Part shown: positions 9,070 through 35,023 of the stretch, piece by piece
How the letters are laid out: the number at the start of each line of letters is the position of its first letter
How positions within the stretch are numbered: position 1 is the stretch's first letter
Source of the DNA: an uncultured Pelagibacteraceae bacterium
Lineage (GTDB): Bacteria > Pseudomonadota > Alphaproteobacteria > Pelagibacterales > Pelagibacteraceae
Assembly (NCBI GenBank): GCA_902573065.1
Contig: CACGHX010000006.1
Span: 1 to 45,644, forward strand
DNA length: 45,644 bases
Direction: 5' to 3'
Notes under the pieces: generated by a model
Databases searched by the model: none
The model's input: the letters and a program-made list of their open reading frames with translations, nothing else
What the model was told of the DNA's origin: nothing
Made by a program: the position numbers and the translations under genes

Positions 9070-10257
9070 ATGGTTAAAAAAAATTATTTTTTATTATTTT
9101 TCATCGTTTTTCTATCCACATTGTCACTTTTAAAGGTATTCAACAATGCAGTGAATTTAGACACTTATGAATACGGAGAATGGTTAATAAATTATCAGTC
9201 AGGATTTATTAGAAGGGGCTTAAGTGGTGAAATTATTTTTCAGCTATCAAAGATATTTAATGGTAATTTACAATTAACCTATTTTGTAATCTTATCCAGT
9301 ATCTGCTTAATGTTTTATAGATTAAATTATATTTTATTAAAAAATATTAAATTTAATTTTTTTACTATTTTAGTATTATTCTCACCACTTTTATATTTTT
9401 TCTTCATAATTATTAATGGTGTAGGTGTTAGAAAAGAAATATTACTATTTTTATTTTATCTTTGGTACTTGATAAGTATTTCTTCCAAAGGTTTCGACGA
9501 AAATAGCTTATGGAAATTTATTTTTATTTTTCCGATTCTATTATTTGTTCATGAAGGTTTATTTTTTTATTTACCTTATATTCTTATTCCTATTTTATTA
9601 GTCAAAAAAAAGGGAGAACATAAAAATTTTATTCCTCATTTTTTGGTATTAATTTTTGTTTCAACAATATCAATGGTAATTTTATTTTTTTTTAAGGGTT
9701 CAGAGAAAAGTGTTTATGAAATATGTCAAAGTTTAATAAATTATACTCCGATTGGATGTCTTGAACGTGGACCAATCTTTGCTCTGAAACATAATTTGTT
9801 AAAAGATCAGGCAAATAATTCAATGTCATTCTTTTATTTAAATGCAAGTTATGCAAGTTGGATAGGTTATTTGACTTATATTGTTTATAGTTTTATTCCA
9901 TTAATGTTGCTTTTTAAATTTGTAAGAATAAAAAATAAAATTTTTTACATCTCAATTTATTTCTTAATAATTTCTTTTAGCTTTCCACTGTTCCACGTAG
10001 CAGAAGATTGGTCACGTTGGTTTTCAATACATATTCACCTTACTGTATTTTTAATATTTTTTTTACAAAATAACAAAATGATTAAATATGAAATAAGTAA
10101 AAAGGCAAAAAAATTCAACAATTTTTTTATGAATAAAAAGATATTGCTTTTTTTACTACTTTTAACCTATTGTACCTTTTTACATCATGAGGAATATTTT
10201 TCTAGAGATACAAAACTCGAATTCACATATTATAAAATTTTTAAAGATCTAAATTAA
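9070..10257 (+). CDS. Polytopic membrane protein, possible surface-glycan gene
   Basis: A 395-aa, very hydrophobic protein with about nine to ten TM segments and almost no soluble domain. Near the N-terminus it has INYQSGFIRRGLSGEIIFQL; a GFxRRGLxG motif of this type occurs in uncharacterised bacterial membrane proteins found in polysaccharide loci. Further marks are VHEGLFFYLPYILIP and HVAEDWSRWFSIHIH, whose conserved-looking charged residues may face a lipid-linked substrate. It opens the accessory region and lies convergent to the DprE2-like gene. A GT-C-like transferase or glycan polymerase is plausible, but no motif proves it. Confidence 0.65.
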   Translation: MVKKNYFLLFFIVFLSTLSLLKVFNNAVNLDTYEYGEWLINYQSGFIRRGLSGEIIFQLSKIFNGNLQLTYFVILSSICLMFYRLNYILLKNIKFNFFTILVLFSPLLYFFFIIINGVGVRKEILLFLFYLWYLISISSKGFDENSLWKFIFIFPILLFVHEGLFFYLPYILIPILLVKKKGEHKNFIPHFLVLIFVSTISMVILFFFKGSEKSVYEICQSLINYTPIGCLERGPIFALKHNLLKDQANNSMSFFYLNASYASWIGYLTYIVYSFIPLMLLFKFVRIKNKIFYISIYFLIISFSFPLFHVAEDWSRWFSIHIHLTVFLIFFLQNNKMIKYEISKKAKKFNNFFMNKKILLFLLLLTYCTFLHHEEYFSRDTKLEFTYYKIFKDLN

Positions 10258-10261
10258 TATT

Positions 10262-10987
10262 TTAAAATTTTAATTTTTTAAATATTTTTTCTGGAATATT
10301 TTTGACAAAAAACATTATTATTCTCCAAAAAGAGTTTATGTATATTATTTCTTTTTTTGCTTTGATTGCTTTGGTTATAATAGTTGCAGCTTTTTTTGGT
10401 GATGTAATTAAAAAATTTGGAGCACTTTCCTTAAAGGAGTTTGTAGACATATAGCCGGGTATAATTGTTAGAATGTTTAACTTATTATGAAATTTTTGTC
10501 TTAGACCAGATAAAAATGTTATTAAACCTGATTTTGAGCTACCATAAAAAATATTTTTAGCTCTTCCCCTTAACCCTGCAACAGAGCACATCACGGCCAA
10601 AAAACCATCTCCATTATTGGTAATTTTTGGTAATAACTTATTTATAATTAGAACCGGGTTTAGAAAATTTATTTTAATATTATTTGATGCTAATTCTATA
10701 TCGTTCATTTCTTTTGCTGGGTCGCCTGTATAGCCAGAGATCCAGATAACTCCATCAATGTTGTCATCTAGTTTTGATATTAATTCTAGGTTTTTTTGAA
10801 GATCAATTAAGTCTGTCTCAAAAATTTCAAACTTGTTATTATCCAGTTTTAGGTTTGATAGATCACTTAGCACAGACTCTTTTTTTCTACAGAAAATTAT
10901 AAAATTATAATCTTCCCTAGAATAAATACTTATTAATTCCTTTGAAATTAAAGAACTTCCACCATATATCAAAATTTTTTTTGGCAT
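10262..10987 (-). CDS. SDR-family reductase, DprE2-like
   Basis: A 241-aa short-chain dehydrogenase with the nucleotide-binding motif IYGGSSLISKEL at the N-terminus, a DLID acidic stretch, catalytic Ser in CSVAGLRGR and YGSSK as the Tyr-x3-Lys pair, followed by IIPGYMST. The block GLRGRAKNIFYGSSKSGL resembles DprE2, which reduces decaprenylphosphoryl-2-keto-erythropentofuranose to the arabinofuranose donor. The gene lies one base after the DprE1-like oxidase gene on the same strand, so the two are almost certainly co-expressed, as in actinobacteria. The call depends strongly on this pairing; alone it would be a generic SDR. Confidence 0.75.
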   Translation of the reverse strand: MPKKILIYGGSSLISKELISIYSREDYNFIIFCRKKESVLSDLSNLKLDNNKFEIFETDLIDLQKNLELISKLDDNIDGVIWISGYTGDPAKEMNDIELASNNIKINFLNPVLIINKLLPKITNNGDGFLAVMCSVAGLRGRAKNIFYGSSKSGLITFLSGLRQKFHNKLNILTIIPGYMSTNSFKESAPNFLITSPKKAATIITKAIKAKKEIIYINSFWRIIMFFVKNIPEKIFKKLKF

Positions 10988-10988
10988 T

Positions 10989-12305
10989 TTACATTTCTAG
11001 TCTTTTAGAGAAAATAGAATTAAACTTCCTTTCTGGATTAATAAAATTTAGTTCTTTAACAAATTCTGAATATTCTTCTTTGTTTTTTATTACATCTTTG
11101 TTTGCAATAGAGTCTTTTGAAAAATTAATTTTTATATCATATTCTTGAAATACGCTATTTAAAAAATTCTTAGTTTTTTCAAACTTTGAATTTATCGGAA
11201 TATCCATTGAGATTGAAAAACCTTGTCCATAAAAATTCAAATATTTGCCTTTTTCATCAAATTTTTTAATTATAATAAAAGTACTAAAATTTTTTTCATC
11301 TTTAAAAAATTTAGCAATTTTATTCATTATATCTTTAAAATTATTTTCTTTTACTAAAAACTGAGCTTGAAAGAATCCATTTTTTCCATAAATTTTATTC
11401 CAATTTGTGAAGTAATCTTGGGGGTAAAAAAATTCATCGAAACCTGAGACTTTTTTATAAAATATTTTTTTAAACTTTCTAAATATAAATTTAGTAAATT
11501 TTATTAAGTAATAATTTTGAGTAAAAATTTTTAAAATAAAATAATTAAAAAAATTAATTTCCTTTTCTTTAAAATTAAATTTTTGTAAAGTATGTGAATT
11601 ATTGTTATTTTCATGTTTTCCGAAATAACATAGTCCTTTGATTGAACCATTGCCAAAACTTTCTATCCAATTTACGTTATATTCGTATAAATTTGATTTT
11701 TCTAATATTGAAAAAAAACTATTATAACTTGTGAATTCTAAAATTTCCTGGTTCATTAATATTGAGTTGATTTTTTTCAATCTAAACTTTGCTGATAAAA
11801 TACAACCAGTTAAACCAAATCCGCCTATTGTGCTTTCAAAATAATTTTTATTTTGTGTTGGAGTACAAGTTACAATTTCATTTTTCTCATTTAATACTTT
11901 AAGCTCAAGTATATAGTGCTTTATTTGGTTATTTGTAATGTTTTTGCCGTGAACATTATTGGCAACCATTCCACCAATTGAAACATATTTACTACCAGGT
12001 GTAACAGGCACAAACCATCCTGCTTCTACAATTAAACCTAGTACGTCTTTAAGTAATACACCACTTTGAGCTTCTATAATCCCTTTTGCCTTATCAAAAT
12101 TTAAAACTTGTTTAAAATTTTTCATGGATACAATCAAATTTGTATTTATAGAATTATCTCCGAATGATCTCTGATTTCCTGCAATTATAAAATTTTTTTC
12201 TGCCATAATTTTTTTTAATTCTTCAAGATTTTTTGGATAAATTATCCTTGGGGTCACCTTAGTATTACCACTCCAATTTAAAGAAAAATTTGATTGGGAT
12301 TTCAT
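10989..12305 (-). CDS. FAD-linked oxidase, DprE1-like
   Basis: A 438-aa protein of the VAO/PCMH flavoprotein type. The FAD loop reads IIAGNQRSFGDNSIN (residues 40-54), and the second FAD block VPVTPGSKYVSIGGMVANN leads into HGKN (119-122) and TIGGFGLTG. These line up with decaprenylphosphoryl-ribose 2-oxidase DprE1, whose matching parts read RSYGDNAQN, VPVLPGTRQVTVGG, HGKN and VGGNGLTG. In that pathway a polyprenyl-phospho-ribose is epimerised at C2 to give the D-arabinofuranose donor. The DprE2-like partner follows directly. No polyprenyltransferase for making the substrate is in the window. It could act on a related lipid-linked sugar. Confidence 0.82.
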   Translation of the reverse strand: MKSQSNFSLNWSGNTKVTPRIIYPKNLEELKKIMAEKNFIIAGNQRSFGDNSINTNLIVSMKNFKQVLNFDKAKGIIEAQSGVLLKDVLGLIVEAGWFVPVTPGSKYVSIGGMVANNVHGKNITNNQIKHYILELKVLNEKNEIVTCTPTQNKNYFESTIGGFGLTGCILSAKFRLKKINSILMNQEILEFTSYNSFFSILEKSNLYEYNVNWIESFGNGSIKGLCYFGKHENNNNSHTLQKFNFKEKEINFFNYFILKIFTQNYYLIKFTKFIFRKFKKIFYKKVSGFDEFFYPQDYFTNWNKIYGKNGFFQAQFLVKENNFKDIMNKIAKFFKDEKNFSTFIIIKKFDEKGKYLNFYGQGFSISMDIPINSKFEKTKNFLNSVFQEYDIKINFSKDSIANKDVIKNKEEYSEFVKELNFINPERKFNSIFSKRLEM

Positions 12306-12350
12306 AATAATTAAGTGTATATTTTAAAAATTAAATTACTTCTACCAAAA

Positions 12351-13928
12351 ATGCTTAAAAAAAAATTACAACTCAACGAAAAAATTCTTGTATTAATTAT
12401 TTTGGTATTTTCTCTAATTATAAACCAATACTATGCCAATAAGGGTGTTTTCCCAATAGAAAGTTTTGCTCATTTTGACATAGCTTTTAGAATTATTAAT
12501 GGTGATATTCCTTTTCAAGATTATTGGTTAGTTTCAGGATTATTAATTGATTATGTTCAAGCTTTTTTTTTCAAAGTATTTGGGCAAAATTTTCAAGTTT
12601 ATATTTTTCATGCATCTCTAATAAATTGCTTATTAACAATTACAACTTTTTATATTTTAAAAAATTTTAATTTAAATATTTATCAATGTGTTTTTTACTC
12701 TTTTTGTTTTGCAATTCTTGGGTATACAACTAGCGGGACTTTATATGTAGATCACCATTCATCTTTATTATGTTTATTGGCTGTTTATTGTTTAATAATG
12801 GCATTAAAAACCGATAAAAAAAAATTTTTAGTTTTATTACCAATTATTTTAGGACTTGCGTTTTTGACAAAATCAGCACCTTCGGTTTATGTTTTTTTTT
12901 CAGTCTCATTTATACTTATCTTGTATATTTTTATTAAAAAAAAATTTAATTGGCTTTTGTATTTAATTTTAAGTTCGTTATCTTTCATAATATTTATTCT
13001 ATTATTTTTTGATTTTGTGAATATTAAACTTGAAAATTTTTTTGAGCAGTACATACTTTTTCCTTCTTCAATCGGAAAAAATAGAATAGCGGAACTTAAT
13101 TTTTTGTCTGGTGATATAATTTTTGATTACAAGTTCATCTATATTTCTTTTATACCTATATTAATAATTACATTTCTTGATATAGTTAAATCTAAAAAAA
13201 ATATATTTAATAAGAATTTCTTTTTTTTCTTATCTTTTCTTTTATTAATACTTAGTTTAGTTATTCATCAGATAAATACCAGAAATCAAGAATTTATTTT
13301 TTTTCTAATTCCTGTTTTGTGTGCCTTTTCATCAATATTTATATACAATTTTGAAATAAAATATAAAAAATACTTTTCAGTTTTTTTATTATTATTTTGT
13401 TTGTTTGTTACTTCAAAATATCATTTGAGATTTAATGATGAAAGAAAATTTCATGAAATGTCTAAAATAAATTTTGATTTATCAGTAGATGCAAAAAAAA
13501 TTGACAAAAAACTTTCTGGTTTAAAATGGATAACACCAATATTCCCTAACTCTCCCGAAGAAGAAGTTAAGTTCTTGAGAGAAATTATAGGTGTCTTAAA
13601 TGCTGAAAATAGTAAAGCTATGGTAATGTCAAACTATTCTTTTCTTTCCCTTATTATTGATAAAAATCTTCATTCTCCAAGTCGATGGTACATTCCAAAT
13701 GGTGCAGCATACCCAATTGAAAACAACAAATATTTTGATGAATACAAAAATTTTTTAATTGATCTGATTACAAGAAAAAAGGTCTCGGTAATTTATATTA
13801 TTTCACCGGTGAAGGTTAATGAGCTTTATCGCTATGTTAGCAAAAATTGTTTTGAAGAAGATAAGACAATTGCAGGTGTAAAAAAATTATTAATTAAAGA
13901 TTGTTCATACTTTAAAAGGCCCATATAG
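12351..13928 (+). CDS. GT-C-type membrane glycosyltransferase candidate; 3' end runs into tRNA-Thr
   Basis: I choose the ATG at 12351 (525 aa); a GTG at 12315 would add 12 residues and leave only nine bases to the divergent gene. The protein has about ten TM segments in its first 350 residues and a C-terminal soluble part of about 150 residues. Near the N-terminus it has ESFAHFDIAFRIINGDIPFQDYW, the layout of GT-C enzymes such as ArnT/PMT-like proteins (acidic residue in the first loop, then a G-x-IP-x-x-D-x-W segment). It lies divergent from the DprE1-like gene, so it may use the lipid-linked pentose made there. The stop codon is TAG at 13926-13928, inside tRNA-Thr. The donor and acceptor are unknown. 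Confidence 0.7.
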   Translation: MLKKKLQLNEKILVLIILVFSLIINQYYANKGVFPIESFAHFDIAFRIINGDIPFQDYWLVSGLLIDYVQAFFFKVFGQNFQVYIFHASLINCLLTITTFYILKNFNLNIYQCVFYSFCFAILGYTTSGTLYVDHHSSLLCLLAVYCLIMALKTDKKKFLVLLPIILGLAFLTKSAPSVYVFFSVSFILILYIFIKKKFNWLLYLILSSLSFIIFILLFFDFVNIKLENFFEQYILFPSSIGKNRIAELNFLSGDIIFDYKFIYISFIPILIITFLDIVKSKKNIFNKNFFFFLSFLLLILSLVIHQINTRNQEFIFFLIPVLCAFSSIFIYNFEIKYKKYFSVFLLLFCLFVTSKYHLRFNDERKFHEMSKINFDLSVDAKKIDKKLSGLKWITPIFPNSPEEEVKFLREIIGVLNAENSKAMVMSNYSFLSLIIDKNLHSPSRWYIPNGAAYPIENNKYFDEYKNFLIDLITRKKVSVIYIISPVKVNELYRYVSKNCFEEDKTIAGVKKLLIKDCSYFKRPI

Positions 13929-13991
13929 CTCAGTTGGTAGAGCACTTCCATGGTAAGGAAGAGGTCGCAAGTTCAATTCTTGCTGTGGGCA
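13919..13991 (+). tRNA. tRNA-Thr (anticodon GGT)
   Basis: The cloverleaf is complete: acceptor GCCCATA/TGTGGGC, D-stem GCTC/GAGC with loop AGTTGGTA, anticodon stem CTTCC/GGAAG with loop ATGGTAA (anticodon GGT), variable AGGTC, T-stem GCAAG/CTTGC with loop TTCAATT, discriminator A. CCA is not encoded (ACCG follows). The first ten bases overlap the 3' end of the upstream membrane-protein gene. Confidence 0.97.
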
Positions 13992-13998
13992 CCGCTAA

Positions 13999-15168
13999 CT
14001 ATATATTTTTAACTATTGTTCTAAATTTTAAATTTTCGGGATTTAATTTTTTACTCGATCTTTCAAAACAGGTACTTGCAAAAAAATTCTTTACATCTTT
14101 TTGACTAATGGTGTCTGAGATTAAATCATCAACCTTAATTTTTCCTGACTTTAAAATTTCTATGGAGTTTTCTATGTCAGTTTTATACCTTTTTTCTTTT
14201 TCAAGATATTGAGATGAATATCCATGAATACCCTGAACTGAAATTTCATTTGAAATTAATTGATGATAATTTAAAGATAATTTTTCATCCTCAACTCCAA
14301 ACAAATAAATCTTTGATTTAGGTTTTAGTTTTAATAGGTAATCATTAATTTTTGACGAAGAACCAAAGAAATCTAAAATAGTATCAAATGTTTGGAACTC
14401 ATTATTTATTTTATCTTTATAAATTATATTCTTTATATTAAGTTTTTTACAAATATTTTTATCTTTTTCTGTCTCAACTAAAAAATAAAATTTCTCTAGT
14501 ATATCCTTATTAAGCGAACGGTAAAATAATATAGATATTGTAGAAATCCCTATTCCAAGAATTTTTTTATTTTTCCTTAAAAATCTTGCGCAGTTTATCC
14601 CTAAAGAAATTGGCTCTACAAAAATACCAATCTTTGAGTCAATCTCATCTGGTAATAAAAAAGTTTGATGTTTTGATCTTACAAAATATTCTGAAAAACC
14701 TCCGTAAGTATTATTTTTAAATTTTCTCTTTTTTTTATTTAAGCAAAAAACACCACGTTTTTTTTTACAATTCTCGCATTCTTCATTAATATTAAAAGAT
14801 TTACAAATATTTATATCTGCTACTATTACTCTTTTTCCAATATTTTTTTTAAATTCCTCGTCCTTTGTATCTACAATTTCAGCAACAACTTCGTGTCCTA
14901 AATAATCTTTGCCAATTCTTCTATTTAAATTTTGATTTCTTTTTAGAAGTTGATTTATATTCATAACTTTATCAACATCAGTACCACACACACCACAGTA
15001 AATTGGTTTGAGAAGTAATTCATGTCCTTCAAATGTTGGCATCTCTTCTTCATTGGAAATTAAATGACTAAACCAAAATTTAGAGAAGAATTTTCCAAAA
15101 AATCTATAGAAACTAAAGTTTATTCCCTTGGCTTTTTTTGGATCAATATAAAATGTTCTTATTGTCAT
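13999..15168 (-). CDS. Zinc-dependent MDR-family dehydrogenase
   Basis: A 389-aa medium-chain dehydrogenase/reductase. The catalytic zinc site shows CGVCGTD (Cys61) and LGHEVVAE; a structural-zinc region with CENCKKKRGVFC is also present. The region IFVEPISLGINCARF marks the hinge to the Rossmann domain, whose glycine motif is poorly conserved (ILGIGISTIS). It has an unusual N-terminal extension of about 45 residues. It is the last gene of the five-gene oxidative operon, one base after the aldo/keto reductase. An alcohol-aldehyde or sugar/polyol oxidoreduction is expected from the family, but the substrate cannot be named. Confidence 0.8.
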   Translation of the reverse strand: MTIRTFYIDPKKAKGINFSFYRFFGKFFSKFWFSHLISNEEEMPTFEGHELLLKPIYCGVCGTDVDKVMNINQLLKRNQNLNRRIGKDYLGHEVVAEIVDTKDEEFKKNIGKRVIVADINICKSFNINEECENCKKKRGVFCLNKKKRKFKNNTYGGFSEYFVRSKHQTFLLPDEIDSKIGIFVEPISLGINCARFLRKNKKILGIGISTISILFYRSLNKDILEKFYFLVETEKDKNICKKLNIKNIIYKDKINNEFQTFDTILDFFGSSSKINDYLLKLKPKSKIYLFGVEDEKLSLNYHQLISNEISVQGIHGYSSQYLEKEKRYKTDIENSIEILKSGKIKVDDLISDTISQKDVKNFFASTCFERSSKKLNPENLKFRTIVKNI

Positions 15169-15169
15169 G

Positions 15170-16144
15170 CTATATATTCATTATCTCCTTTATAAATTTT
15201 TTATCAATTGGCTTTTTTAAAATACCTTTAATCTCATTAAATTGCTCTTTGCTTGATAATCCAAAAATAATACCACTTACAAATTTTTGATAATAAAGAA
15301 AAGAAAAAGAAAGCTTGGAAATGCTTATAGAGTTTTTTTTACAGTATTGATATATTTTCTTTGATTTCTCTAATTTGCCCAAATAACCTCTTTTCCTTTT
15401 AAAATTTTTTATAGAATTAAAACGCCCTTCATATTTCTTATTTTCAAAGTATTTGCCTGTAAGCAATCCTCCTCCTAAAGGGGAATAAGCATTAAACTTT
15501 ATATTATCCCGCATAAAAATTTCTTTCATAGCTATCTCAACTTTTCGATTTATAAGTGAATATTCCTCTTGTGAGTATAGTTTAATTTTATTTTTTTTAG
15601 AGAGATTTTGAAACTTCGACAATCCCCAAGCTGACTCATTGCTTATGCCGAAATTTCTTATTTTTCCAGATTTCTTTAATTTAAGGATTGCATCAAATTG
15701 TACTTCCAAAGGAATAAACTTAGGGTCATTGCCTGGAGAGTAATAAAGTCTATCGAAGTTGTTAGTAAATCTATCTGGCCAATGTATATAAAATGTATCT
15801 ATATAATCGGTTTTTAATCTTTTTAAACTCTTTTCTGCTGCAGATATAATTCTTTTAGGAATTAATCTATTGCCACCTACTGATTTAATTTCTCCAAAAT
15901 TCCTTCCAGTAACTTTTGTATCAATTAAAATAGATTTTCTAACCTTATTCTTTTTTTGCCAATCACCAATAATTTTCTCAGTTAATCCGAATGTTTCATT
16001 TTTTTCAGGAAATGGATACCTTTCAGCACAATCAAATTTTTTGATACCAAAATCATAGACTTGATCTAATAATGAAAGCGAATCTTTTTCGTTTAAATAT
16101 GAGCCCAGGCACTGTGTACCAAAAATTAGTTTTTTTTTAATCAT
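15170..16144 (-). CDS. Aldo/keto reductase family protein
   Basis: A 324-aa (beta/alpha)8 NAD(P)H-dependent carbonyl reductase. The catalytic tetrad is visible as Asp38 and Tyr43 (FDCAERY), Lys77 (DTKV) and His121 (FYIHWPD). Typical later blocks are IRNFGISNE, NAYSPLGGGLLTGKYF and GIIFGLSS. The overall look, including the FGTQCLGS start and the way the pathway Asp is placed, resembles AKRs found in nucleotide-sugar and polysaccharide loci. It lies 12 bases after the 2OG-oxygenase-like gene and one base before the MDR dehydrogenase, so it belongs to the same transcript. The substrate is unknown. Confidence 0.88.
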   Translation of the reverse strand: MIKKKLIFGTQCLGSYLNEKDSLSLLDQVYDFGIKKFDCAERYPFPEKNETFGLTEKIIGDWQKKNKVRKSILIDTKVTGRNFGEIKSVGGNRLIPKRIISAAEKSLKRLKTDYIDTFYIHWPDRFTNNFDRLYYSPGNDPKFIPLEVQFDAILKLKKSGKIRNFGISNESAWGLSKFQNLSKKNKIKLYSQEEYSLINRKVEIAMKEIFMRDNIKFNAYSPLGGGLLTGKYFENKKYEGRFNSIKNFKRKRGYLGKLEKSKKIYQYCKKNSISISKLSFSFLYYQKFVSGIIFGLSSKEQFNEIKGILKKPIDKKFIKEIMNI

Positions 16145-16156
16145 CCTAAATGGATT

Positions 16157-17065
16157 TTATTTCTCTAATTTTATTGTTTTTAATACTTTTGATGTGTAGT
16201 GAGAATATACACTTTTTTTTTCTGCAGGTTTATCATCCTCGTATTGACCAGGGTCTATGAGGGTTGATATTCCAAAATCTGGAATTCCTGACTTACTGTA
16301 CTCTGCCATTCTATCAGCGTGGGGTTTGTGTTCCCCGATATACAATCCTGTATCAATAGAAATTCTAGTGTCACAATCGTTTGCTCTGTGAGTCTCATGT
16401 ATCATACAATAATCGCTAAAATAAACTTTTCCTTTTTGAGGTTTAAAATTAATTTTTTTATAATGTTTTAAAACCCACTGCATATCTTCATAAGAAGGTG
16501 AAGCTGCCATCATCTTTTCATCAAACTCATCTTTATTTGGCTCATAAAATAATAGATTGTTTTTATCACTGTCTCCTAGAAGCGGGAAGTAACAATTGTA
16601 ACCCCAGGGACCCTCAACCCATGCATCGGAATGGGCATAAGAAGTGCTCAATGCTCTTCCAACATTGTCTTCTAGTTCTTTAGCGTATTTAATTCTTACA
16701 TTTGGAGTAAATCTAAATATTGATAATAATTTCTCATCTCTTTTTACCATTCCTTTTATTATTTTGGCCCAATCTCTAAGAACCATATTGTATTCTAATT
16801 GAAATTCCCTTTTAGGAACTACTGCTCCATTTGGGGTAACGTTTTTTCTATTACTTCTTGCTTCATTAACTTTTTTCATAAATAAATCATCATTATTTTC
16901 GTATTCAAAATTTAAAGCCTTACTCACATATAGTTTGATTTTAACTTTAAATTCATCAAATGTATTTTTATTTAAAGGTAAGGATGCGATAAGATCATGA
17001 TCTCTATCAAGGCCCCATGATCTAACCATAGTATCAACTCTTTTAATTCTATAATCTAATGACAT
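16157..17065 (-). CDS. 2OG-Fe(II) oxygenase-like protein
   Basis: A 302-aa protein that I assign to the cupin-fold 2-oxoglutarate/Fe(II) oxygenases from a complete facial triad with correct spacing: His145-x-Asp147 in SYAHSDAWV and a distal His (His223 or His226) in MIHETHRAND, followed after about ten residues by Arg234 (DTRISID), which would bind 2-oxoglutarate. The N-terminal 120 residues are mostly helical and not recognised. It lies three bases after the end of the PhyH-type gene, so two oxygenases of this fold are encoded side by side. The substrate is unknown. The assignment is by motif only. Confidence 0.6.
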   Translation of the reverse strand: MSLDYRIKRVDTMVRSWGLDRDHDLIASLPLNKNTFDEFKVKIKLYVSKALNFEYENNDDLFMKKVNEARSNRKNVTPNGAVVPKREFQLEYNMVLRDWAKIIKGMVKRDEKLLSIFRFTPNVRIKYAKELEDNVGRALSTSYAHSDAWVEGPWGYNCYFPLLGDSDKNNLLFYEPNKDEFDEKMMAASPSYEDMQWVLKHYKKINFKPQKGKVYFSDYCMIHETHRANDCDTRISIDTGLYIGEHKPHADRMAEYSKSGIPDFGISTLIDPGQYEDDKPAEKKSVYSHYTSKVLKTIKLEK

Positions 17066-17068
17066 AAA

Positions 17069-17927
17069 TTAATTTCTTCTTAAGTATTTATCTTTAAAAA
17101 AAACTTTTTTACTTTTGTGCCAAGTAACAGGAAAAAATGTTTCGTCCATCTTAGATGAGTTTAAAATTTTATAATGATTAAAGTGAGGATTCTTTATTCG
17201 ATTATGAAATTTAGAGTTACCGTTCATAAAGTGTATGCTTAATGTAATTCTATCTTGTTTAGTTTTATTAAAACCAGAGCCATGCCACATATCACCGTGA
17301 TGGAATACCACAGAACCTTTTTTTGCTACAACATAATGTCGACCAAATTTATCTGCGTTTGATAGTAATTTTTTACTTATAGACCTATAACTTTGATTGG
17401 TAAAAAACTTGTTAAGTCTTTTTGTTGTTCCATTTTTTATGAGATCCTATTAAATATTCTAATGTTGCGCCCTCTTTGCTTGTGTCTTCTAATGGTATCC
17501 AAGCAGTTATAACTTTTCCAGGAGTATGCCAGTCTTGATAAGGATTATCTTGGTGAAAGGCAACTGAACCTGCGCCTGGAACAACCCATATTAGGCTATC
17601 CTGATTAAGTCTTGTGCTAGTCCAATTTTGTAAACTTGCAACTAATTCTCCTATTTTCTTTGATAAAACTACTCTCGCAACGTCATAATCTGACTTCCAT
17701 GCGTTACATACTGATCTAGGAATATTGTTTTTGTCTCTACCGTACACCCATTTTATTTTATCAGGCACTACTCCAGTTTCATACTGACCTTTGAATATTT
17801 TTTTGTATTTTTTTCTAACTTTGTTTAAATCGTTTTTATTAAGAACGTTTTCAAAAATTACGAAACCATTCTTATTAAAAAATTCTTTCTTTTCTTTAAG
17901 CTGACTTTTCGTAAAATTTTTGGTCAT
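17069..17927 (-). pseudogene. Phytanoyl-CoA dioxygenase (PhyH)-family gene with a +1 frameshift
   Basis: The first part (17927-17412) gives KNGFVIFENVL, then FHQDNPYQDWHTPGKVITAW (iron-binding His-x-Asp) and GATLEYLIGSHKKW, then a stop. The second part, in another frame, begins RLNKFFTNQSYRSISKKLL and runs through GRHYVVAKKGSVVFHHGDMWHGSG and QDRITLSIHF, supplying the distal His and the 2OG-binding Arg. Removing one base from the run of five T (17419-17423; A on the coding strand) joins both parts into a normal PhyH protein of about 285 aa. Both halves keep the family residues, so the break is recent, a sequence error, or bypassed by slippage. The ATG at 17927 (MTKNFTKS) is chosen. It lies inside the end of the HemN-like gene; an ATG at 17939 is also possible. 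Confidence 0.85.
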
Positions 17928-19314
17928 TATATGCGTCAAACACGTTTGCTACCTGAGGAGATAAATGCTCACCTAACTCGGATAGAATGATGTTGCTATT
18001 ATTAATTTTTAAAAGTTGATCATCTTGTAATGGTAATAAATTAATCAGTTCTTTTTTAAAATAATCTTTAAAATCCATTTTGTATTTTTTGTTAAAAAAA
18101 TCAAATTCTACATTAAAAAATGTTCTAATGTGTCTAATTACTTCCCTTCGGATCACATCGTCAGAGTTCATTTTAAGCCCCCTATATATAGGAAACTTAC
18201 CCTCATCAATCGCTCCTCTATATAAATTTAACTCATAAAAATTTTGAAAGTAATATTCATCATTTAGAACTCCATGTGCTGAACTTCCTACAGCAATAAA
18301 ATTTGTAGCCTCCCCTTTTTGTGTTCCTAAAGAATTATAAACAGCTTTTTTTTCATTAATTGATTTGGCTAATGGATCACTTGGAAGAGCATAACTTTCA
18401 AAACCTGCTCGAGTATAATTATTAGACATCAAAACTTTATTAGCTGCTTCAAAAACAGCCTTACGATCAAAAAAATCAAGCATCGGTTCATTTCTAACCA
18501 TTTTTGTCATATATTTTCTTGTGTTAGGTTTGTAATGCACATACATCGTTTGTAGTTGAGAAGGCTTTAATTGTGCAACAGTTTTCATTGTTTCTTCAAT
18601 TTTTTTAACATTTTGTCTTGGAAGACCTATTAAAAAATCAAAATTGATAACGGGAAAAAGTTTTCTTACTCTTGGGGTTAATAATTTATCTACAAGTTCA
18701 GGTGGTTGAACTCGATTAATTTCTTCTTGAACATCTCGATCAAAATCTTGAATACCAAAAGATAATCTAGTTACTCCTTGTTCATGATAGAACATTAATC
18801 TTTCTTCGTCTACTCTTCTAGGATCGACCTCAATAGTAAAATCTCCAATTTTTGAAAAATCTATGAGCGATCTCATTTTTTTTATTAAGTATTTGAATTC
18901 TTCTTCTTTATAATATGTCGGTGAACCTCCGCCTAAATAAATTTCTTTAAAATTGAAACTTACTTTGTTTTGGTTCAAAAAATTTTGAAGCATATCAAAC
19001 TCTTTTGATAAGTAATTGTACAAGTAATCTTTTACGTTTTCGTAGTTTTGAGTTATGGTTTTACTACACAAACAAAAATAACAAAGTTGTTCGCAAAAAG
19101 GAGTGTGTACATAAAATAAGACTGGTTTTTGTTTATTTTTTTCTTTACCGTACCAATCAGTTATAGCTGACTTATAGTCTTCTGATCCAAATTTCTCTGA
19201 CCAATTACCTTTGGTTGGGTACTCGGTATAATCATAAATTAAATTGGTATGATATTTTTTTAAAAGAAGAGCATTCTTTAATATACTTCCCTCTTTACTG
19301 GTTGTGTAACTCAT
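17896..19314 (-). CDS. HemN-family radical SAM enzyme (coproporphyrinogen III dehydrogenase-like)
   Basis: A 472-aa full-length HemN-type protein. The [4Fe-4S] site is Cys74-x3-Cys78-x2-Cys81, with the extra Cys83 that true HemN also has (CEQLCYFCLC). Other HemN landmarks are YTEYPT near residue 30, FYVHTPFC, LGGGSPTY, IEVDPRR, LSFGIQDFD, INRVQ and NFDFLIGLPRQ, followed by a HemN C-terminal domain (RGLKMNSDDVIRREVIRHI). Oxygen-independent conversion of coproporphyrinogen III to protoporphyrinogen IX is possible. However, the gene heads an operon with two oxygenases and two dehydrogenases and not with heme genes, so a recruited radical chemistry is also plausible. On the minus strand, TTGTAA followed after 17 bases by TACATT in the 42-base upstream gap may be its promoter. 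Confidence 0.85.
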   Translation of the reverse strand: MSYTTSKEGSILKNALLLKKYHTNLIYDYTEYPTKGNWSEKFGSEDYKSAITDWYGKEKNKQKPVLFYVHTPFCEQLCYFCLCSKTITQNYENVKDYLYNYLSKEFDMLQNFLNQNKVSFNFKEIYLGGGSPTYYKEEEFKYLIKKMRSLIDFSKIGDFTIEVDPRRVDEERLMFYHEQGVTRLSFGIQDFDRDVQEEINRVQPPELVDKLLTPRVRKLFPVINFDFLIGLPRQNVKKIEETMKTVAQLKPSQLQTMYVHYKPNTRKYMTKMVRNEPMLDFFDRKAVFEAANKVLMSNNYTRAGFESYALPSDPLAKSINEKKAVYNSLGTQKGEATNFIAVGSSAHGVLNDEYYFQNFYELNLYRGAIDEGKFPIYRGLKMNSDDVIRREVIRHIRTFFNVEFDFFNKKYKMDFKDYFKKELINLLPLQDDQLLKINNSNIILSELGEHLSPQVANVFDAYNDQKFYEKSA

Positions 19315-19356: not shown

Positions 19357-20811
19357 TTAAAAAAAGGCCTTTTTTAAATCTTTTTCGACACTTTTAAACG
19401 CAGTATCTAAGTTATCGATTTCTTCTGACCTAAAAAGTTTAACATTTTTATACCAGTTGCTTTCAGACTTTTTTAGAAACCATCTCCAATCACTTAGAAA
19501 GGGTAAAATTATCCAAGTTTTTTTTCCTAATGTAGCTGATAAATGAGCAGTTGAAGTATCCGCAGTTATAACAAGATCCATTTGCTTTATAATTTCAATA
19601 CTATCTAAAAATGGTTTTTCAGACTCATCAATATCTGGAAAGCATATAATATTTTTTCTGACTGAAATTTCTTTTAAATCATTATCACTGGGTTTTTTTT
19701 GTATAAGAAAAAAATTAGCTTTATAAATAGACGATAGTTTAACAAAGTAGCTAAATGGTATATTTTTTTTTTGTAAAGATGTGTACGCATTTATACCAAT
19801 TTTTAAACCTTTGTATTTCTCCAATTTATTTGTCCATTTTATCTCAATATTTTTATTATTTTTAAAAAAATTAACTGTCTTATAAAAAAGTTGATTTTTT
19901 TTATTAAATATACCTAATAAGCTAAGTAAATGATTATGAAAGTCATGATCTGGTATTTTATCTTCTTCAGATATAATTTTGAACTTTTCTGTTTCTAAAA
20001 AATGAGAAAATTTTTTGTTTTTGAGATACAAAATTATCTCAACATTGTAACTCTCTTTTATTTTATAAAGATATCTTACAAACTGTATTAGATCTCCAAT
20101 ACCTTGTTCTGTAATAACTAAAAGTTTTTTATTTTCAAGATTTTCACCCTGCCACACTTTACTCTTCAAATTTAGTTTTTGGTAATTAATATAATCTAAA
20201 AAAGTTTTACTTTTTTTTCTCCACTCATATTCTTTGAAGCCTTCCTCAAAATTTTCTAACATTAATAATTGTGTTGCATAATTAACGTGAACATCAGGAT
20301 TTTTATTATTTATTTTTATTGACTCACTGTAATATTTTTTAGCCTCATCAAAATTTCCAATATTTTTATATGAGTTTGCTAAATTATTAAATGCTAAAAA
20401 ATTTTTAGGGTTTGACTTTATTGAACTCTTGAAAGCTTTGATTGCCAAATCAAATTTTTTATTTATTAAATGAATATTTCCAATGTTGTACATCGAAAAA
20501 TTATTTTTTGGTTCAATTTCAAAAGAATCTTTATAAAATTTTATTGCTTTATCAAAAATTTTTTGATCATGATAAAACTTTGCATAATTATATAAAAGTA
20601 ATGGATCTTTAGGATTTAATTTTAGGCTTTTTTCAAAAACATTTTTTGCTAATGCAAACTCTTTCAACTGAGAAAGTAACGGACCATAATTTTGTAATAC
20701 TGAATAATTATTTGGATTTGTTTTTAATATATGTTCATAGATTTCTCTAGCTTTATTCCAATTACCTTTGCTGTGATGCAAAAGTGCACTTTTAAAATAG
20801 TCCACCTTCAT
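19357..20811 (-). CDS. TPR-repeat protein with C-terminal glycosyltransferase-like domain
   Basis: A 484-aa protein. The first half (about residues 1-190) holds five to six tetratricopeptide repeats, each of 34 residues with the A-x-x-x-Y/F and P-x-N/D spacing (NPNNYSVLQNYGPLL, NPKDPLLLYNYAKFY, NPKNFLAFNNLANSY and so on). The second half has WQGENLENKKLLVITEQGIGD (positions about 220-240), then LVITADTSTAHLSATLGKKTW and FLSDWRWF, the marks of TPR-linked transferases related to GT9 heptosyltransferases and GT41. It probably glycosylates a protein or surface polymer. It lies two bases after the 51-aa membrane gene and 42 bases before the HemN-like gene, so it is likely co-transcribed with the upstream TVP38 gene. 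Confidence 0.85.
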   Translation of the reverse strand: MKVDYFKSALLHHSKGNWNKAREIYEHILKTNPNNYSVLQNYGPLLSQLKEFALAKNVFEKSLKLNPKDPLLLYNYAKFYHDQKIFDKAIKFYKDSFEIEPKNNFSMYNIGNIHLINKKFDLAIKAFKSSIKSNPKNFLAFNNLANSYKNIGNFDEAKKYYSESIKINNKNPDVHVNYATQLLMLENFEEGFKEYEWRKKSKTFLDYINYQKLNLKSKVWQGENLENKKLLVITEQGIGDLIQFVRYLYKIKESYNVEIILYLKNKKFSHFLETEKFKIISEEDKIPDHDFHNHLLSLLGIFNKKNQLFYKTVNFFKNNKNIEIKWTNKLEKYKGLKIGINAYTSLQKKNIPFSYFVKLSSIYKANFFLIQKKPSDNDLKEISVRKNIICFPDIDESEKPFLDSIEIIKQMDLVITADTSTAHLSATLGKKTWIILPFLSDWRWFLKKSESNWYKNVKLFRSEEIDNLDTAFKSVEKDLKKAFF

Positions 20812-33410: not shown

Positions 33411-33920
33411 TTGAAAAAAAACCTTGTATTAACTGGAATGATGGGTGTTGGTAAATCTTCCATTGGTAAAGACTTGTCCTACAAGCTTAATATGGAATTT
33501 AAAGATATGGACTCCATAATAGAAAAAAAACTTTCACTATCTATAAGTGAAGTATTTAAGAAAAAAGGTGAAAAATTTTTTAGAGATATAGAGGAAAAAG
33601 AAACTATAAATCATTTGAATGAAAAAAAAGTTGTTATAGCTCTTGGTGGTGGAGCTTTTATGAATGAAAAAATTAGAGAAGAGACAAGCAAAAAAGGTAT
33701 TTCATTTTGGTTAGATCTAGAATCGAAGGCCATTTTTCAAAGAATTAAAGTTAACATGAAAAGGCCGCTATTGAATAATATTACTTCAGAAAGTGAAATT
33801 GAAAAAATTTGTAAGTCTAGAGAAACAATTTACTCACTTTCTGACTTCAGGATAGATTGTAATTCTAAAAATAGAAGTCAAATAATAGAGGAAATTTATA
33901 ATATTTATGAAAGTAAATAA
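33411..33920 (+). CDS. aroK: Shikimate kinase
   Basis: A 169-aa P-loop kinase that phosphorylates shikimate in aromatic amino-acid synthesis. Walker A is GMMGVGKSSIG (residues 9-19), followed by DMDSIIEKK (shikimate-binding Asp), FFRDIEEKE (Arg-Glu), ALGGGAF and the lid KRPLLNN. The start must be TTG at 33411 because the next Met lies within the P-loop. TATAAA ends at the base just before it, and there is no ribosome site. The end overlaps aroB by 14 bases. Confidence 0.94.
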   Translation: MKKNLVLTGMMGVGKSSIGKDLSYKLNMEFKDMDSIIEKKLSLSISEVFKKKGEKFFRDIEEKETINHLNEKKVVIALGGGAFMNEKIREETSKKGISFWLDLESKAIFQRIKVNMKRPLLNNITSESEIEKICKSRETIYSLSDFRIDCNSKNRSQIIEEIYNIYESK

Positions 33921-35023
33921 AATTTATGTGAAAAGTAAAAATACCCACTATACAATTATTATTGGTAAAGGATTATTAGGAATATTAAAAAAGCAATTAA
34001 ATAAATTATGCCCCCGAACAAAAAAAGTAGGATTAATTTTAGATAAAAATATTCCAAACCATTTTAAGATAAAAATTAAAAAGCAACTTAAGAAATACAA
34101 TCTTTATGTTTATGAATTTCTTCCAAATGAAAAATTAAAATCATTTAAAAAAGCAAATAGTCTGTTAGAAAGTCTAATCAAAAAATAATCTTAGTAGGAA
34201 TGATACAATCATAACTGTAGGTGGAGGAATAATAGGTGATTTTGGAAGCTTTGTTGCAAGTATTTACAAAAGAGGAATTAATTTAATAAGTATTCCTTCC
34301 ACACTTTTGGCACAAGTTGACTCATCAATTGGAGGTAAAACTGGTGTAAATTCAGCAGGTGGTAAAAATCTTATTGGGACATTTTATCAACCAAAATTAG
34401 TTTTAAGCGATTTAACACTTTTAAAAAGTTTATCAAAGAGAAATTTAGTCTGTGGTTTTGCTGAAATTTTAAAACATTCAATAATAAAAGATAGTAAATT
34501 TTTTAATAAATTAGACAGGGACAAAAATAAGATTTTTGAAAACTTTAATTTCAATATTTTGGCAGAGATAATATTTAAAAGTTGTAAGATCAAATTATCT
34601 TTTGTTAATAAAGATGAAAAGGAACAAAATGATAGAATGATACTAAATTTTGGTCATACTTTTGCTCACGGAATTGAAGCGGCAAATAAGTACTCTGGAA
34701 AAATTAATCATGGAGAAGCTGTTTTGATTGGAATGATTTTAGCTACCAGACTCTCCTTTATTAAAAAAGTTTGTTCTAAACAAACATTAGATAAAATAGA
34801 AAAACTTTATTTAAATCAAAAACTACTTAAAAAGTTTTTAAACTTTTTAGATAAAAACAACTTAAATAAAATAGTTAATTTTATGGAAGTTGATAAAAAA
34901 AATTATGATAAAAAAATTAATCTAATACTTCTTAAAAGAATAGGTAAAACAACAAAGCCAGGTCAATATAGATTTAGTCCCAAAGAGATGAAAAGCGTTT
35001 TAAGAAAAATTATAAGATTTTAA
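33907..35023 (+). pseudogene. aroB: 3-dehydroquinate synthase gene with a +1 frameshift
   Basis: AroB makes 3-dehydroquinate from DAHP. The N-terminal frame (33907-34188) gives YTIIIGKGLLG, VGLILDKN and LPNEKLKSFKKANSLLESLI and then hits TAA. The rest is in the next frame: NLSRNDTIITVGGGIIGDFG, RGINLISIPSTLLAQVDSSI, GGKTGVNS, GFAEILKHSIIKD, LNFGHTFAHGIE and INHGEAVLIGM, with all metal and NAD ligands. Taking one A from the run of six (34180-34185) restores a 371-aa protein reading LIKNNLSRND. Everything before and after is intact, so a sequence error or slippage during expression is more likely than true loss of an essential step. It is downstream of aroK, as usual. Confidence 0.92.

Follow-up and report, generated by a model that had tools for sequence, protein, structure and literature searches.

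A probable SAR11 surface-glycan cassette centred on an undescribed HemN-derived clade

Introduction

What does a relative of the coproporphyrinogen oxidase HemN make when it is encoded together with two predicted Fe(II)/2OG oxygenases, an aldo/keto reductase (AKR) and a zinc MDR dehydrogenase? The question is raised by five adjoining genes in a 45,644-nucleotide stretch of DNA from an uncultured Pelagibacteraceae bacterium, the whole of which was analyzed and is called the window here. A literature search on combinations of these enzyme classes found nothing relevant, and the first-pass annotation was right to see a coherent accessory system whose combination of enzymes is undescribed. The locus is probably a SAR11 surface-glycan cassette centred on an undescribed HemN-derived clade, a description that draws on sequence for the composition, order and accessory distribution of the genes, for the clade and its residue changes, and for the glycan-island context of its relatives. 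To our knowledge, the chemistry of SAR11 surface glycans is largely unknown. The glycans, encoded in hypervariable islands, are considered important for phage defence (PMC2217521).

The Cassette and Its Insertion Slot

The first gene of the cassette, HEMN (17896–19314, minus strand), encodes a HemN-fold radical SAM enzyme of 472 aa and overlaps by 32 nt the start of a gene for a PhyH-type Fe(II)/2OG oxygenase (17069–17927, minus strand; ATG at 17927). On the same strand follow, after 3 nt, P302 (16157–17065), a predicted Fe(II)/2OG oxygenase outside any Pfam family; after 12 nt, the AKR (15170–16144; PF00248, E 9.3e-53); and, after 1 nt, the MDR dehydrogenase (13999–15168; PF08240 (ADH_N), E 5.7e-13). 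The first-pass annotation had described five minus-strand genes with gaps of 1–12 nt or overlap, which is accurate for strand and spacing but not for PhyH, which is not one open frame. The AKR had been credited with an intact tetrad, and the Asp/Tyr/Lys/His residues are indeed seen in an alignment with relatives adjoining other HEMN genes. The ADH_N domain bears out the assignment of the last gene as a zinc dehydrogenase; in an NCBIfam profile search it resembles L-threonine 3-dehydrogenase, with a score below the cut-off.

The cassette appears to have been inserted between a conserved gene for a TPR protein with a glycosyltransferase-like C-terminal part (19357–20811, minus strand), which forms its upstream edge and occupies this position in each of the 11 congeners examined, and a tRNA-Thr(GGT) gene (13919–13993, plus strand; ARAGORN and sequence). 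The tRNA gene, absent from the first-pass annotation, is the boundary of two insertion modules, and its 3' end adjoins the cassette, with 5 nt between it and the stop codon of MDR. The slot lies at this gene, between dcd and a DedA-family gene, and is adjoined by tRNA-Thr in 8 of the 11 congeners; no integrase was found among its listed ORFs. Empty-site comparison shows the cassette to be missing at the slot in 10 of the 11, while the eleventh, G033, carries P302 alone (70% identical). The adjacent DprE and glycosyltransferase genes had been thought to allow a surface-glycan role, but they make up a module of their own, one that is present in congeners lacking the cassette. Because of this they are no evidence for such a role, and that argument was dropped; the glycan link is drawn instead from the neighbourhoods of HEMN relatives.

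HEMN Relatives in Surface-Glycan Islands

The 13 other HEMN loci lie mostly within surface-glycan islands, where the neighbours include genes for NeuB, CMP-sugar synthetase, DegT, epimerase, SIS, HldE and GT2 proteins. A parallel set consisting of MDR, 2OG oxygenase, HEMN, AKR, AKR, SpoChoClust_2 and SpoChoClust_1 is found in four subclade II islands (L029, L032, L033 and L034), with the same enzyme classes drawn from other gene families. Conversely, L024, L025 and L027 have HEMN without AKR and MDR. A related AKR is present at 6 of 12 HEMN loci versus 0 of 20 HEMN-free glycan islands, and a related MDR at 7 of 12 versus 0 of 20, comparisons in which the probe proteins were taken from HEMN loci, a choice that favours association. 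With the subclade II loci collapsed to one lineage, the MDR association is still significant (p 0.003), but those of the AKR and the full set are not (p 0.07). The genome-neighbourhood check proposed in the first-pass annotation has a divided outcome: comparable sets of enzymes appear in further glycan islands of SAR11, but there is no fixed block, since all five gene classes occur together at only one of the 13 loci (L023) and one congener has P302 alone.

Two known carbohydrate systems invite comparison. The genes that come after HEMN-AKR-AKR in the subclade II islands match TIGR04323 (SpoChoClust_1) and TIGR04324 (SpoChoClust_2) of the NCBIfam "sporadic carbohydrate cluster," on which a literature search found nothing relevant, and the PhyH protein of L023 is weakly related to TIGR04324. 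TIGR04323, present in subclade II loci such as L034, has no match in the window's genome, and most SAR11 islands that have it differ in being without HEMN, AKR or MDR nearby. The second system is HVR2, the SAR11 hypervariable region with LPS genes between the 23S and 5S rRNA genes (PMC2217521). Subclade II loci share with it acetolactate synthase-like, methyltransferase, alcohol dehydrogenase and epimerase genes, and the HEMN locus L031 lies beside rRNA genes, where HVR2 is situated, whereas the window's slot at tRNA-Thr is elsewhere.

This patchwork raises the alternative that HEMN-PhyH, P302 and AKR-MDR are separate units, acting on different sugars or lipids and gathered one by one beside tRNA-Thr. 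Such a piecemeal origin would fit the lone P302 of G033, the HEMN-PhyH pair without AKR-MDR at L025, the position of the adjacent AKR and MDR genes of L023 at 4.3 kb from PhyH, and the frequent reshuffling of glycan islands (PMC2217521). It is a serious alternative but an unlikely one, as the genes share one strand with minimal gaps and an overlap, the whole block is absent from ten congeners, and subclade II islands bring these enzyme classes together again, encoded by other gene families.

The Two Predicted 2OG Oxygenases

The PhyH-type dioxygenase had been taken for a single gene, but as sequenced it is split by a frameshift, with PF05721 recognized on both halves. The HxD lies in the half at 17412–17939, and the distal His and Arg lie in a different frame, in the half at 17069–17311. 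Orthologues adjoining HEMN are unbroken in L023 (11352–12248) and L025 (11387–12217). A sequencing or assembly error is the likely cause because aroB, a core gene in the same window, is broken in the same way. That the frameshift is genuine and belongs to a decaying cassette whose pathway is inactive in this strain would agree with the division of the triad between two frames, but it is improbable in view of the aroB fault and of the other four genes, which are open with their motifs intact.

P302 has no Pfam match, no NCBIfam match above chance and no PDB match by sequence. It is predicted to be an Fe(II)/2OG oxygenase from its model (pLDDT 76.7), which has a PhyH-like double-stranded beta-helix fold and matches 2OG oxygenases at Z 10–11, with SnoK, SnoN, EctD and PHYHD1 as the top structural matches at 8–12% identity. 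The HxD...H...R triad noticed earlier is well founded: H144, D146, H222 and R233 (alignment numbering, first Met omitted) are invariant in all seven relatives. A profile search across the order recovered a single congener, one remote relative within SAR11 and some weak fragments, and none was found in phages and viral contigs.

A HemN Scaffold with Altered Pocket Residues

HEMN is full length and has Cys74, 78, 81 and 83, just as first described. It resembles HemN (TIGR00538; 1olt) in its full-length fold, including the C-terminal domain, in its CxxxCxxCxC motif and SAM-site residues, and in part of the N-terminal trip-wire (YxxYPT). It can be aligned to E. coli HemN over residues 17–466, and its model matches the E. 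coli structure 1olt with a Z of 39.8 over 426 residues at 2.5 A. It differs in its 27–34% identity to the HemN proteins compared, in its score of 317.2 bits against TIGR00538, which is ~8 below the curated equivalog cut-off of 324.95, and in being found beside HemF and in glycan islands. A residue map of 13 HEMN members (E. coli numbering) shows Y56, C62, C66, C69, C71, G112, G113, E145, Q172, R184 and D209 kept in all 13, with R22, H244, R308, F310, Q311 and I329 altered. Of the altered positions, R22, R308, F310, Q311 and I329 are invariant in the 10 HemN proteins compared and replaced in every member. The trip-wire motif PRYTSYPT and the pocket motif RNFQGY (F310/Q311) are both absent from the 13 proteins, whereas both occur in the strongest matches outside SAR11 that were recovered as loci.

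In the tree, HEMN forms a clade on a long branch with support of 100/100, a value that applies to the clade and not to its place among the HemN rows. Within the searches run, the clade was met in SAR11 only, in about 1% of the genomes sampled. Viral contigs gave pattern matches and no relative, and plasmids and phages gave only HemN/HemW-type proteins at ≤34% identity among the matches listed. Two candidates were set aside. A true HemN in G118 (L016) was not counted because it is probably contamination, its contig being unlike SAR11, and the match in G048 (L008/L017) is likely contamination on the same grounds. HemW, whose hallmark is an HNxxYW heme motif (PMC11834973), is also distinct: TIGR00539 proteins have this motif and no fourth Cys, while HEMN has the fourth Cys in 13 of 13 and QNxY at the HemW motif position.

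The class C HemN-like methylases (NosN, NocN, TbtI and C10P) belong to the same family and offer a precedent for use of the HemN scaffold on a non-heme substrate, as proposed for HEMN. HEMN keeps the Tyr at the position of HemN Tyr56, a residue that in NocN stacks on SAM II. However, sequence alignment with NocN is restricted to the radical SAM half, HEMN has an N-terminal extension with the partial trip-wire motif that NocN is without, and HEMN is without the natural-product cluster context of these methylases. PhyH and AKR families are common in natural-product pathways. The characterized HemN-like enzymes of new function (NosN, TbtI and C10P) act in such pathways (PMC12871812, PMC6050322). 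A cassette that likewise made a small secreted metabolite, or that modified a membrane lipid, instead of a surface sugar is quite improbable, given that no peptide, polyketide or NRPS genes are nearby in the window or its relatives and that the relatives are flanked by nucleotide-sugar and LPS genes.

HEMN probably does not act as a coproporphyrinogen oxidase. It is not the only candidate in its genome, which encodes HemF; its score is under the HemN cut-off, it makes up a clade of its own, and pocket residues specific to HemN are gone from all 13 members. The idea that HEMN is an oxygen-independent backup to HemF at low oxygen, with neighbours carried in a variable island as unrelated passengers, has in its favour the narrow shortfall against TIGR00538, a model that covers nearly all of E. 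coli HemN, and the retained Cys71 and SAM-site residues, but it is very hard to sustain against five replaced invariant residues, a separate long-branched clade and a rare distribution sited in glycan islands.

Proposed Function

The reading we favour, and hold to be probable, is that the five genes form an accessory cassette for making or modifying a single unusual sugar residue of the SAR11 cell surface, with HEMN derived from HemN and its pocket rebuilt. The cassette probably helps to build such a sugar because its relatives lie in surface-sugar islands and the HEMN substrate pocket is changed. We infer the sugar substrate, a two-SAM mechanism and the order of steps as follows. HEMN would have arisen from HemN, retaining the [4Fe-4S] and SAM machinery while the coproporphyrinogen pocket was rebuilt for another substrate. 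It may bind two SAMs, because the SAM-contact residues are retained; in the residue map, Tyr56 and the SAM I residues of the two-SAM site are kept and F310, Q311 and I329 are altered. HEMN would start radical C–H chemistry, whether oxidation, decarboxylation or transfer of one carbon. Both Fe(II)/2OG oxygenases would act on the same molecule, by hydroxylation or oxidation, and its carbonyl/alcohol oxidation states would be set by the AKR and MDR. The cassette could in this way be a full set for the stepwise oxidation of one small molecule, and its product, a single unusual sugar residue of the SAR11 surface, would be linked to a nucleotide or a lipid.

More tentatively, HEMN might be the founder of a carbohydrate-substrate branch of HemN, a two-SAM radical enzyme that builds an undescribed type of surface sugar residue with the 2OG oxygenases, AKR and MDR; we regard this as possible, without expecting it.

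Outlook

Annotation would name HEMN proteins HemN and credit SAR11 with anaerobic heme synthesis on their account. If our reading is true, HEMN is a concrete example of how a radical SAM scaffold was recruited to surface-sugar biosynthesis, with the coproporphyrinogen pocket lost and the SAM sites kept. If the carbohydrate-substrate reading is also true, there would be an undescribed sugar type on the surface of SAR11, the most abundant bacteria of the ocean.

A separable insertion beside tRNA-Thr

The cassette lies on contig C6 of a SAR11 genome (G000; 770 kb, 74% complete, 40 contigs). As the first-pass annotation had it, five genes occupy the minus strand: the HemN-like radical SAM enzyme HEMN (17896-19314, 472 aa), the PhyH-type Fe(II)/2OG oxygenase PhyH (17069-17927), P302 (16157-17065, 302 aa), the aldo/keto reductase AKR (15170-16144) and the zinc dehydrogenase MDR (13999-15168). 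HEMN overlaps the PhyH ATG by 32 nt, and the gaps PhyH-P302, P302-AKR and AKR-MDR are 3, 12 and 1 nt. PhyH calls for a correction: its HxD is encoded in one frame (17412-17939), and its distal His and Arg are encoded in a different one (17069-17311). Its orthologues at two related loci (L023 and L025) are unbroken. Because the core gene aroB (3-dehydroquinate synthase, window 33883-35023) is likewise split between two frames, a sequence error is a likelier cause than decay; together the two breaks suggest that the contig contains sequencing or assembly errors.

On the plus strand, a tRNA-Thr(GGT) gene (13919-13993) is separated from the stop codon of MDR by 5 nt. Eleven congeners were compared at the slot bounded by the DedA-family gene and dcd, and in all of them a TPR gene adjoins DedA. 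In eight (G091, G125, G145, G072, G115, G056, G095 and G049), the slot contains nothing large. Two (G081 and G061) lack the cassette and carry, beyond the tRNA, a GT-DprE1-DprE2-GT module 81-95% identical to the window's, and G033 has P302 alone (69-70% identical). Since slots hold nothing large, one module only or P302 alone, sequence comparison shows that the five genes, which sit between the TPR gene and the tRNA-Thr 3' end, are a separable insertion, and that the DprE/GT genes are a second, independent module. The glycan role previously argued from these neighbors therefore loses that basis, the module being found in congeners without the cassette; such a role is supported by another route.

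The module itself (GT-C/DprE1-like/DprE2-like/GT-C, window 9070-13928) is located 5' of tRNA-Thr. Its matches to the DprE1 and DprE2 models score well below the cut-offs, and the module may possibly serve polyprenyl-phosphate-pentose epimerization. Its GT gene at 12315-13928 ends within tRNA-Thr, the last codons and stop being the tRNA's first bases (window 13906-13930).

The HemN-like enzyme

Against the hemN equivalog, HEMN reaches 317.2 bits, slightly under the cut-off of 324.95. Its AlphaFold2 model (pLDDT 82.6) aligns with E. coli HemN (1olt) over 426 residues at Z 39.8; the next structure has Z 13.6. HemF is encoded on contig C26, in a gene cut by the contig end, so HEMN is not the genome's sole coproporphyrinogen oxidase candidate, a possibility raised at first pass. 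In a tree, all 13 full-length members group into a single clade, borne on a long branch (2.89); the 100/100 support is for the clade itself and not for its attachment among the HemN rows.

Outside SAR11, searched with SAR11-derived patterns within the genome collections at hand, the best matches (398 genomes of the phylum) are 30-34% identical to HEMN. Every strongest match whose protein was read has PRYTSYPT and RNFQGY, both absent from all 13 HEMN proteins. In E. coli HemN numbering, all 13 keep Y56, C62, C66, C69, C71, G112, G113, E145, Q172, R184 and D209, and all 13 replace R22, H244, R308, F310, Q311 and I329; we take F310, Q311 and I329 to line the HemN SAM II/substrate site. Because the SAM and cluster residues are kept and these six replaced, we read HEMN as having probably retained radical SAM chemistry with a changed substrate. 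HemN Tyr56 stacks on SAM II, and NocN is without the trip-wire (PMC12871812). HEMN may use a two-SAM mechanism.

P302 as a predicted oxygenase

Pfam assigns P302 to no family, NCBIfam gives it no match better than chance, and its sequence matches nothing in the PDB. H144, D146, H222 and R233 (numbered without the first Met) are invariant across seven relatives, and all the structures listed as matches to its model (pLDDT 76.7) are Fe(II)/2OG oxygenases, including SnoK (Z 11.3), SnoN (10.7), EctD (10.7) and PHYHD1 (10.2). Given the invariant triad and Arg and these matches, the earlier call of a second oxygenase stands as a prediction.

Distribution and gene linkage

A genome-collection scan with a profile built from three sequences found 13 further HEMN loci, all in SAR11 or unassigned alphaproteobacterial single cells and MAGs. 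HEMN is rare in the SAR11 family: the clade occurs in 3 of 247 genomes (G000, G050 and G025), a lower bound because islands assemble poorly. Clear relatives of P302 were recovered by profile search from 3/327 genomes of the order. Two HemN-type genes (L016, G118:C21; L017, G048:C12) lie on contigs with gene content unlike SAR11, which are probably contamination of bins.

At L023, one island holds P302, HEMN-PhyH and AKR-MDR; the accompanying genes are DJ-1, cupin, Nudix, B12 radical SAM, E1-type ThDP, SIS, DegT, NeuB-like, CMP-sugar synthetase and epimerase genes. L025 has P302 and HEMN-PhyH; L024 and L027 have P302 and HEMN. In a second HEMN subclade, L029 and L032 carry a parallel operon, MDR-methyltransferase-2OG(C7)-HEMN-AKR-AKR-SpoChoClust_2-SpoChoClust_1, whose genes are more dispersed at L033 and L034; C7 has the HxD...H...R pattern in 7/7. 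Both subclades thus combine AKR, MDR and two 2OG-type oxygenases with a HemN-like enzyme, the genes being partly non-orthologous.

The same probe proteins were applied to 20 SAR11 islands picked by SpoChoClust_1 and without HEMN. AKR occurred at 6/12 HEMN loci versus 0/20 control islands (Fisher p 0.001), MDR at 7/12 versus 0/20 (p 0.0002), and AKR, MDR and at least two 2OG genes at 5/12 versus 0/20 (p 0.004), with probes taken from HEMN loci and hence biased toward the association. With five similar second-subclade loci collapsed to one lineage, p is 0.003 for MDR and 0.07 for AKR and for the full set. Linkage of AKR and MDR to HEMN is likely, not proven.

In several islands, B12-binding radical SAM proteins recur at no more than a few kb from HEMN (L023:12252-13763, L025:12217-14154, L026:15110-16666, L027:16546-18063). 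In an island adjoining rRNA genes, an AdoCbl-II riboswitch (L022:10503-10595) immediately follows a distant P302 relative (9582-10460) and precedes a 624-aa ORF.

A proposed surface-sugar tailoring cassette

HVR2, the LPS region of SAR11, is situated between 23S and 5S rRNA and has acetolactate synthase, methyltransferase, alcohol dehydrogenase and epimerases consecutively (PMC2217521), a gene list resembling the neighbors of second-subclade HEMN loci. L031 adjoins 16S and 23S rRNA, and L032 has a MarR_EPS regulator scoring above cut-off. The cassette enzymes would act on a sugar substrate, and we infer this, the two-SAM mechanism and the order of steps. On the sequence evidence of composition, gene order, separability, clade, residue changes and island context, the five genes are best read as a removable surface-sugar tailoring cassette whose HemN-derived enzyme would have a changed substrate.
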